DNA of 41,265 nucleotides, taken from Actinomycetota bacterium (lineage in GTDB: Bacteria > Actinomycetota > Thermoleophilia > Gaiellales > Gaiellaceae). The position numbers and the translations under genes are program-made. The notes under the pieces are model-generated. The model saw nothing but the letters and a program-made list of their open reading frames with translations, did not search any database and had not been told where the DNA came from. The stretch lies in assembly GCA_005883995.1 (NCBI GenBank), contig VAXB01000019.1:1-41265 (forward strand), in the 5' to 3' direction. Below, one piece after another: positions 2,835 to 6,286 of this stretch (its first letter is position 1; each line of letters opens with the position of its first letter).

Positions 2835-4325
2835 CTACGACGCCCCGTGCCCGCCGCCGCCGGGCGTCTCGATCGTGATCACGTCACCCGCCGCGAGCTC
2901 GGCCGTCACCTTCCCGGGGACGACCTGTCCGTTGTTCGCGTTGCGGCCGACCGTTCCCGCCGCTCCGCCCGCCGTCCCTGCCGGCGCTTGGCGCCGCCGC
3001 TCCGATATGAGCGACACGCGGCAAGGCGCGAGGACGCGGAGCTCGCGGACGACGCCGTCGCCGCCGCGGTGCGCGCCGTTTCCACCCGAGCCGCGGCGGA
3101 GCGCGTAGCGCTCGACGCGCAGCGGATACTGCAGCTCGAGCGCCTCGACCGGCGTCGACAGCGTGTTCGACATCGCGACGTGGACGCCGTCGGGCCCGTC
3201 GCCGTCCGGACACGCGCCCTGGCCGCCGCCGATCGTCTCGTAGTACGTGAACTGCTCGTTCCCGATCGTGACGTTGTTCATGGTCCCCTGCCCCTGGGCA
3301 GGCGTCGGGATCGCGCCCGAGAACGCGCGCATCACGACGTCGACGATCCGCGACGACGTCTCTACGTTTCCCGCGGCGACGGCGGCCGGCGATGTCGCGT
3401 TGACGAGGCATCCGAGCGGAGCGCGGACGTCGACGGGCGCGAACGCTCCGCCCGAGGCCGGCAGATCGGGATCGACGAGTGCGCGGACGACGAAGTAACA
3501 AGCCGACCGCGCAACCGCGAGCGGACAGTTGAGGTTGCCGGAATCCTGGGGCGCGGTGCCCGCGAAATCGACGGTGATCGACTCGCCTGCGATCGTGACG
3601 GCGGCTCGGAGCTCGAGGTCTCCGCTCTGCGCCTCGAGGACGTCGCACGCCTCGTACCGGCCGTCGGGGAGAGCGGCGATTCCTGCGCGGATGCGCCGCT
3701 CCGAGTACGCGTACAGCTCGTCCATCGCTTCGACGACGACGTCGCGGCCGCGTCGCCGGCAGATCTCGGCGACGCGCCTGTCGGCGAGATGGTGCGCTGC
3801 GAGCTGGGCGCGGAGATCGCCGCGCCGCTCGTCCGGATTGCGCATCTGCGCGATCAGCCGCGTGAGCACCATGTCGTCGAGACGTGTCGGCGGGATCACG
3901 ACCCCCTCCTCGTCGAGCGTGCGCGAGTCCGCCGGCATCGACCCGGGCTCGCGGCCGCCGACGTCGGCGTGATGCGCGCGCGTCACGGCGAAGCCGACGT
4001 CGGTGCGCGACACGAGCGTGATGTCCGGTAGATGCGTACCGCCGGTGTAGGGGTCGTTCACGATCCATACGTCGTCGCGAGCCGGCTCATGCCGCATCAC
4101 CGCGGCAACGGCATCGGGCATGGCGCCGAGATGCACCGGGATGTGCTCGGCCTGCGCGGTCATCCGCCCGCGTTCGTCGAACAGCGCCGTGGAGCAGTCA
4201 CGCCGCTCCTTGATGTTCGCGGAGAACGCCGATCGGACGAGCACGGCGCCCATCTCCTCGGCGACGGCGCGGAGGAGCGAGCCGAGAACTTGGCGCTGAA
4301 CGTTCACGTTCTCGTCACGATCCAC
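2835..4325 (-). CDS. hyuB: Hydantoinase B / oxoprolinase family protein (HyuB)
   Basis: [56 protein letters not shown]-terminus. Confidence 0.9.
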
Positions 4326-5277
4326 GTGGCACCATCCCTAACCCCCACCCACCCGGGCGGAACCCACAGCGTCGAGCCGTCGAGCTCGACGCGCGCTGCG
4401 CCCGCGGCCGTCCGCGGCTCGTAGCGCGGGAGCACGACCTCAGGCGCGGGCCGCACTTCCGCCGTCCGCACCGAGACGAGCTCGATCTCGCGCTCCCGGT
4501 CGGCGAATCCGTACTGCTCCTCATGCGCGCGGTGGAACGCCGCGGCGAGGTCGTCCTGCAGCGGAAGCGTCAGCTCGAATGACTGCCCGCGGTAACGCAG
4601 GTCGGCCTCGCCTTCGCGCGGCAACTCCCCCGCGGCCCGCAGCGGGACGACGTACGAGCGGACGTGGTCGCGCCGCTCGTCCGAAGCGACAAGGCCGAGC
4701 GCCGACAGGACGCCCGCGGTCTCGGGGACGATCACCGTCCGCATTCCCAGCTCATCTGCAAGCTCACACGCGTGAAGGGGCCCGGCGCCGCCGAACGCGA
4801 CGAGCGCAAACTCTTCGGGGTCGTGACCGCGCTCGACCGAAACGACGCGCAGCGCGCGCAGCATCTCCGCGTTGACGACGTCGACGACGGCCGCGGGATC
4901 GATTCCATCGAGCGCCCGCTCGGCAGCCGCGACGTCGAGCGTCACGCCGTCGGCGAGCACCTCGGGCAACCGGCCGAGCAGGAGGTTCGCATCGGTGACG
5001 GTCGCGTCGGTACCGCCCCGGCCGTAGCAAGCCGGCCCGGGAACGGCGCCCGCGCTCCGGGGGCCGACGCGCAGTGCGCCGCCGCGGTCCCGCCAGACGA
5101 TCGACCCGCCGCCCGCGCCGACGGTGTGGATGTCGACCGTCGGAAGCCGGATGGGGAAGCCGCCGACCACCCGTTCGGTCGAGCGCTCGGCGCGGCCGTC
5201 TGCGATCAGGCAGACGTCCGTCGAGGTCCCGCCCATGTCGAATGCGACGGCGTCGGGAAAGCCGGCGCTGCTCGCGA

Positions 5278-5525
5278 GCAAGGGAGCCCGGACGGCGTTC
5301 GTCGGCAACGAGGGCTTCGAGCATCTGCTGCACCTCCGGCGGCAGACACGCGCGCACCTCTACCGCCTGTGCGCCCGGCACCCCGAGCCGCTCGTCCCGC
5401 TCGAGCGGTGCCACGGCGTCCGAGGCCGCATGGCGCCCGATGGGGAGCTCGCGCCGCTCGACCTCGCCACGCTTCCGGAGATCGACGCAGAGGCGATCGC
5501 CGTCTGCATGCTGCACGCCGACCGC
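5278..5525 (+). repeat. Inverted repeat arm A (exact reverse complement of 5823-6070)
   Basis: Base-by-base comparison: 248/248 identical to reverse complement of arm B. Confidence 0.97.
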
Positions 5526-5822
5526 GCCGGCCGCCGGCCCCGAGACGAGGATCGTCGCGGGATGGGCAGCGGCCTCCTCCGGCGTCGCGACGCCTCCCGA
5601 CGAGCGCATCACGAGCGGTTCCGGCAGACCGGCGGCTGTCGATGCGGCGGTGAGCGAACGCAGGTAGCGGCCCGCTATCGGCGCGAGGTACGCATCGACA
5701 GCAGTCGTCGACGCGCGTTCGTACTCCCGGAACTCGGGCGCGAGCTCGTGCGACGCGACCACGTGCGCGTCGGGATAGCGCCGCCGCAGCTCCGCCGCAA
5801 CCACGCGCTCGTGCGCGTCGTG

Positions 5823-6070
5823 GCGGTCGGCGTGCAGCATGCAGACGGCGATCGCCTCTGCGTCGATCTCCGGAAGCGTGGCGAGGTCGAGCGGCGCGAG
5901 CTCCCCATCGGGCGCCATGCGGCCTCGGACGCCGTGGCACCGCTCGAGCGGGACGAGCGGCTCGGGGTGCCGGGCGCACAGGCGGTAGAGGTGCGCGCGT
6001 GTCTGCCGCCGGAGGTGCAGCAGATGCTCGAAGCCCTCGTTGCCGACGAACGCCGTCCGGGCTCCCTTGC
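5823..6070 (-). repeat. Inverted repeat arm B (native copy within hyuA 5' half)
   Basis: Base-by-base comparison with arm A; 297-bp spacer between arms. Confidence 0.97.
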
Positions 6071-6286
6071 GCTCGAGCAGCGCGTTCGTCGCGACGGTCG
6101 TCCCGTGCGCGAAGCGGTCGACGTCTCGTGCGCCGACGGCGCGCCCAGCAGCGACGACCGATTCTTCTTGGCGCGGCGCCGTCAGCACCTTCGCCGTGGT
6201 CACCGTGCCGTCGGCGAACAGCACGGCATCCGTGAACGTGCCGCCGACGTCGACGCCGAGGATCCTCATTCGGGAAGACTGACACC

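Follow-up and report, generated by a model that had tools for sequence, protein, structure and literature searches.

Introduction

Tandem inversion duplications (TIDs) of enteric bacteria consist of three copies in the order direct-inverted-direct and are usually kilobases long. Short-range template switching, as set out in the four-point description and for the quasipalindromes of Escherichia coli, leaves a reverse-complement copy beside its source with microhomology at the switch points, and the orders 3-2-1-4 and 1-4-3-2 of those points yield a single inverted repeat (PMC7954356, PMC7202029). The tracts copied in this way in great apes have a median length of 12 nt and a maximum of 128 nt (PMC7954356). 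The chimeras that MDA mainly yields are inverted, with segments less than 10 kb apart joined through 2-21 bp of homology (PMC1855051). For scaffolding assemblers such as IDBA-UD, runs of N inserted despite overlap have been described, as well as local assembly errors (PMC7111523).

Here we report on an inverted copy within a hyuA gene of an Actinomycetota bacterium, found in a stretch of 41,265 nucleotides (the window) that represents contig C35 of a draft genome. Like a TID, as that class is generally known, it is a local inverted duplication of the kind produced via fold-back or template switching, but it has only two copies, the third, direct copy being absent. It resembles short-range template switching in the position of the reverse-complement copy, in the microhomology at the switch points, and in their order; unlike the great-ape events, it has a tract of 248 nt and a spacer of 297 nt and is known here from an assembly alone. 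With MDA chimeras it shares the inverted joining of nearby segments through short complementarity. However, those chimeras are single joins accompanied by an intervening deletion, whereas the two junctions in hyuA restore collinearity, and amplification of the sample is a supposition on our part. The draft genome further resembles scaffolded metagenome assemblies in its variable N gaps, an unmerged 199-bp overlap, and gene-internal wrong copies, although a perfect 248-bp inverted insertion is not among the errors described for such assemblers in the portion of the source considered, IDBA-UD being an example only (PMC7111523).

The original prediction saw this feature of the sequence correctly, but the organism itself probably lacks it. 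Most likely it is absent from the chromosome and represents a library or assembly chimera, a reading to which we assign a probability of roughly 0.57.

An exact inverted copy within hyuA

The split gene is a hyuA gene (hydantoinase A/5-oxoprolinase family), as indicated by the order of its domains and by the adjacent hyuB. Its N-terminal part (5526-6269, minus strand) is open for 248 aa and matches PF05378 (Hydant_A_N; E=1.1e-33) and positions 1-65 of PF01968 (Hydantoinase_A). The C-terminal part (4304-5278, minus strand), which is open for 324 aa plus a stop codon in another frame, matches positions 75-290 of PF01968 (E=1.7e-66). Downstream, hyuB (2835-4325, minus strand) overlaps the end of hyuA. 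The original prediction of a hyuA gene divided between frames and followed by an intact hyuB was therefore upheld, with both halves open and matching two parts of one protein and with hyuB supported by its match to PF02538 (E=7.7e-175).

By direct comparison, positions 5278-5525 are the exact reverse complement of positions 5823-6070 (248 of 248 bases), with no exact match extending beyond the 248 bp on either side of the arms. An independent repeat finder paired 5265-5525 with 5823-6083 at 99% identity over 261 nt, so that the length of the repeat and the 297-bp separation first reported for it are both borne out. Chance as the source of a 248-bp exact match is impossible. The donor arm, R (5823-6070, minus strand), is the native hyuA segment from which the inverted copy derives and is collinear with the hyuA genes of 20 relatives. 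The 297-bp spacer, S (5526-5822, minus strand), is native hyuA in its native orientation, likewise collinear with the relatives, and the N-terminal half is in one frame. The inverted copy, R' (5278-5525, plus strand), stands in place of 19 ancestral bases and is without a counterpart at this site in the relatives. Together, arm, spacer, and copy span 793 bp. A search of the organism's own draft genome found just these two copies of the 248-bp segment and no third, direct one.

It is very improbable that this arrangement is a functional or programmed element, such as a selectively maintained invertible segment or regulatory hairpin. Judging by the geometry, recombination between the two arms could invert the 297-bp spacer, but the spacer is plain hyuA coding sequence, and its inversion would not restore the gene. 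Furthermore, the repeat is absent from all 20 relatives, and the other copies in the assembly sit in unrelated genes. An invertible switch or regulatory element was rejected on the basis of the plain coding spacer and the lack of any relative carrying the repeat.

The uninterrupted site and the two junctions

The original prediction had proposed a comparison with hyuA in sister genomes. All 20 related loci (from the same genus, the same family, and neighbors) carry a hyuA that runs uninterrupted across the site, with 19 nt where the window holds the 248-bp copy. This comparison supports the view that the interruption of a normally continuous hyuA is derived, with microhomology at its junctions. 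The gene had been expected to be continuous apart from the copy, and the relatives agree with this; however, the insertion is inexact, since 19 nt were replaced. Nine of these ancestral bases, which for this genome are deduced from the relatives and the codons, constitute the homology at one junction, three are TGC, and approximately seven were lost. The net change is +229 bp, which places the two halves in different frames. With the HyuA protein of a genome of the same genus as the query, the nearest named relatives are an actinobacterial MAG (L196; 79% protein identity) and a Thermoleophilia MAG (L207; 74%).

At the first junction, the 9 bp GCGGTCGGC (gene strand; 5517-5525, minus strand) are common to the donor and the inferred ancestral target. 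They encode A-V-G, and identical bases are found at the same place in one relative (L009). The donor segment has these same bases at its inner end, which gives the first junction its 9-bp homology. At the second junction, the 12-bp palindrome TGCTCGCGAGCA (5269-5280) straddles the boundary, as had been noted from the sequence, and the direct homology amounts to ~3 bp (TGC), these being the last three of the 19 ancestral bases as well as the end of the donor copy. Microhomology had been claimed for both junctions. That claim stands for the inner 9 bp, but the outer 10-bp match, GCGCTGCTCG, lies off the junction: it is in register with the repeat and 3 positions away, with mismatches at 2 of them, and the direct outer homology is just the ~3 bp.

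Along the gene, the four switch points would fall at ~5526 (point 1), 5823 (point 2), 6070 (point 3), and 5277 (point 4). In form, this is a textbook template-switch event, with an exact nearby reverse complement, an uninterrupted ancestor, and short homology at the switch points. A real and very recent mutation of this type, made during replication and inactivating hyuA through the +229 frameshift, is a serious candidate that we place somewhat short of even odds. The replicating strand would have stalled near the GC-rich palindrome, switched template via the ~9 bp, copied 248 bases backwards, and returned via the ~3 bp with the loss of ~7 ancestral bases. If synthesis ran from the N-terminal to the C-terminal end of the gene, the switch would be an intrastrand fold-back on the new strand; if it ran from C to N, it would be an interstrand switch. 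Several observations suit such a mutation. No other damage was found in either half of hyuA, which is a gene that cells can usually do without. The event is complete and two-sided: each end shows microhomology, a palindrome lies at the point of return, and the order 3-2-1-4 (1-4-3-2 when read from the other side) is one of the two majority orders for single inverted repeats (PMC7954356). Against it, none of the hyuA genes of the 20 relatives carries the inverted copy, and the tract is longer than the longest great-ape event (PMC7954356).

Near-identical local copies elsewhere in the assembly

The draft genome consists of 2,682,008 bases in 195 contigs, with N gaps, an estimated completeness of 85.7%, and contamination of 1.9%. 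A scan for near repeats covered 1.59 Mb of it (1.55 Mb without N) and revealed, beyond hyuA, three further inverted copies matching their sources at 98-100% identity, along with several direct copies that are nearly identical. Genes other than hyuA and hyuB were named by eye from their translations. An APC permease gene contains a perfect 199-bp inverted repeat (L156, G000:C124; 14185-14383 and 14808-15006). Relative to the corresponding locus of a relative (L185, G008), 255 bp are replaced by the inverted copy, and a 77-bp deletion coincides precisely with the other arm's inner edge. A perfect 75-bp inverted repeat is found in queA (L095, G000:C63; 5568-5642 and 5686-5760), where the 43-bp spacer is turned around and ~100 bp of conserved core are replaced with the frame still open. 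The third is a 92-bp inverted copy, at 97.8% identity, of a fragment of a leucyl-tRNA synthetase gene, leuS, with the arms ~1.3 kb apart (L063, G000:C30; 8550-8641 and 9915-10006). A second intact piece of hyuA, queA, or the permease gene was not found in the same genome.

Among the direct copies, one of 312 bp in pyrB (L119, G000:C87; 9614-10237) is in frame and has three clustered mismatches, and the match in relatives ends where the first copy ends. A 363-bp near-perfect direct copy, also in frame, is present in a UDP-galactopyranose-mutase-like gene (L147, G000:C115; 5783-6513), and further near-identical direct copies measure 315 bp (L087) and 118 bp (L123). At one locus (L080, G000:C48; 9139-9624), the same 199 bp abut both sides of an N gap, and this unmerged overlap is a scaffolding error. 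In a gapped self-comparison, the near-identical copies cluster at 97-100% identity, and an older tail is all but absent; the repeats in hyuA and queA rest on the repeat scan, since alignments crossing the spacer are discarded by the overlap filter of the gapped comparison.

As a control we used 80 loci (1.38 Mb without N) from other genome records, comprising isolates and MAGs; these loci were picked through a HyuA alignment search and are thus a nonrandom sample. The gapped scan of the 80 control loci found no copy of at least 100 bp at 97% identity or higher, and no exact inverted repeat longer than 33 bp was present within 5 kb in any of them. Their one exact direct repeat of at least 100 bp was a 189-bp repeat in Bradyrhizobium. 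Exact repeats of at least 100 bp occur at 8 loci of this genome, and the control has one such locus (P ~ 0.03). When only inverted repeats of at least 75 bp are counted, the numbers are 3 and 0 (P ~ 0.12), a difference that is not significant by itself.

Origin of the inverted copy

The surplus of near-identical local copies, direct as well as inverted, shifts the balance toward a chimera, without amounting to proof, and a sequencing or assembly error has a slight edge in likelihood over a very recent error of copying in the cell. A faulty library or assembly would be expected to produce such a surplus, which includes pyrB and queA and has hardly any older tail, and this favors an origin of the copies outside the cell, as we infer it. 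For a mutation made in the cell, three perfect in-gene inverted repeats in 1.55 Mb would imply an exceptionally high rate, and the bunching of the copies at high identity and the involvement of conserved genes such as pyrB also weigh against it. Several of the copies are 98-99% rather than 100% identical, which suggests joined strain variants.

Under the chimera reading, the hyuA copy would be one of several near-identical local duplications particular to this draft assembly. These would have arisen through chimeric template switching in library preparation or whole-genome amplification, through reads or strain variants being wrongly joined at the local level in a scaffolded short-read metagenome assembly, or through both. 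In hyuA, a 3' end may have come to a halt at the GC-rich palindrome and reannealed via ~9 bp to a nearby strand, after which 248 bases would have been copied in reverse and joined back via ~3 bp. The original prediction offered template switching within the gene or a fold-back or assembly chimera. Both classes are possible, and no third is indicated, but a fold-back with one junction is insufficient: a single one-junction fold-back chimera was rejected because two independent junctions are needed. Misjoining in a de Bruijn graph via shared k-mers was likewise rejected as the sole cause, since usual values of k are far larger than the homologies of 9 and ~3 bp. With homologies too short for any usual assembly k-mer, reads across the junctions would have to exist.

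Other observations tell against an artifact. A single junction is usual in amplification chimeras, whereas hyuA has both and is collinear again beyond them, and the 793-bp span exceeds a typical short insert. No fold-back repeat was found at any of 251 contig ends, and this absence of one-sided fold-backs also speaks for a real mutation. The assembly contains no contig with an uninterrupted hyuA allele. The lack of significance of the excess of inverted repeats taken alone, with its P value of ~0.12, belongs on this side as well. Whether artifact or real, the event is of a known kind. If it is an artifact, the hyuA, queA, pyrB, and permease genes called as broken in this draft genome should not be taken for lost genes, and assemblies of this sort can be flagged by simply scanning for near-identical local repeats.

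SbcCD in the genus

In E. coli, the hairpin nuclease SbcCD, of which SbcD is one partner, destabilizes long inverted repeats. SbcD (TIGR00619) was detected above the family cutoff in none of the 10 genomes of the genus, which is consistent with a real mutation: a genus apparently without SbcD could allow long inverted repeats to persist. It is unlikely, though conceivable on these grounds, that the copies throughout the assembly are real and that they mark a soil actinobacterial lineage without SbcCD, in which frequent template switching would lay down long, perfect, in-gene inverted duplications whose hairpins go uncut. If the hyuA copy is real, a lineage apparently lacking SbcCD provides a clean and long instance of an established class of mutation, and the copy would allow testing of how far SbcCD limits inverted duplications in nature. 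The matches to SbcC in the 10 genomes were weak and partial only, and the same search for SbcD gave a match in 13 of 14 control genomes.
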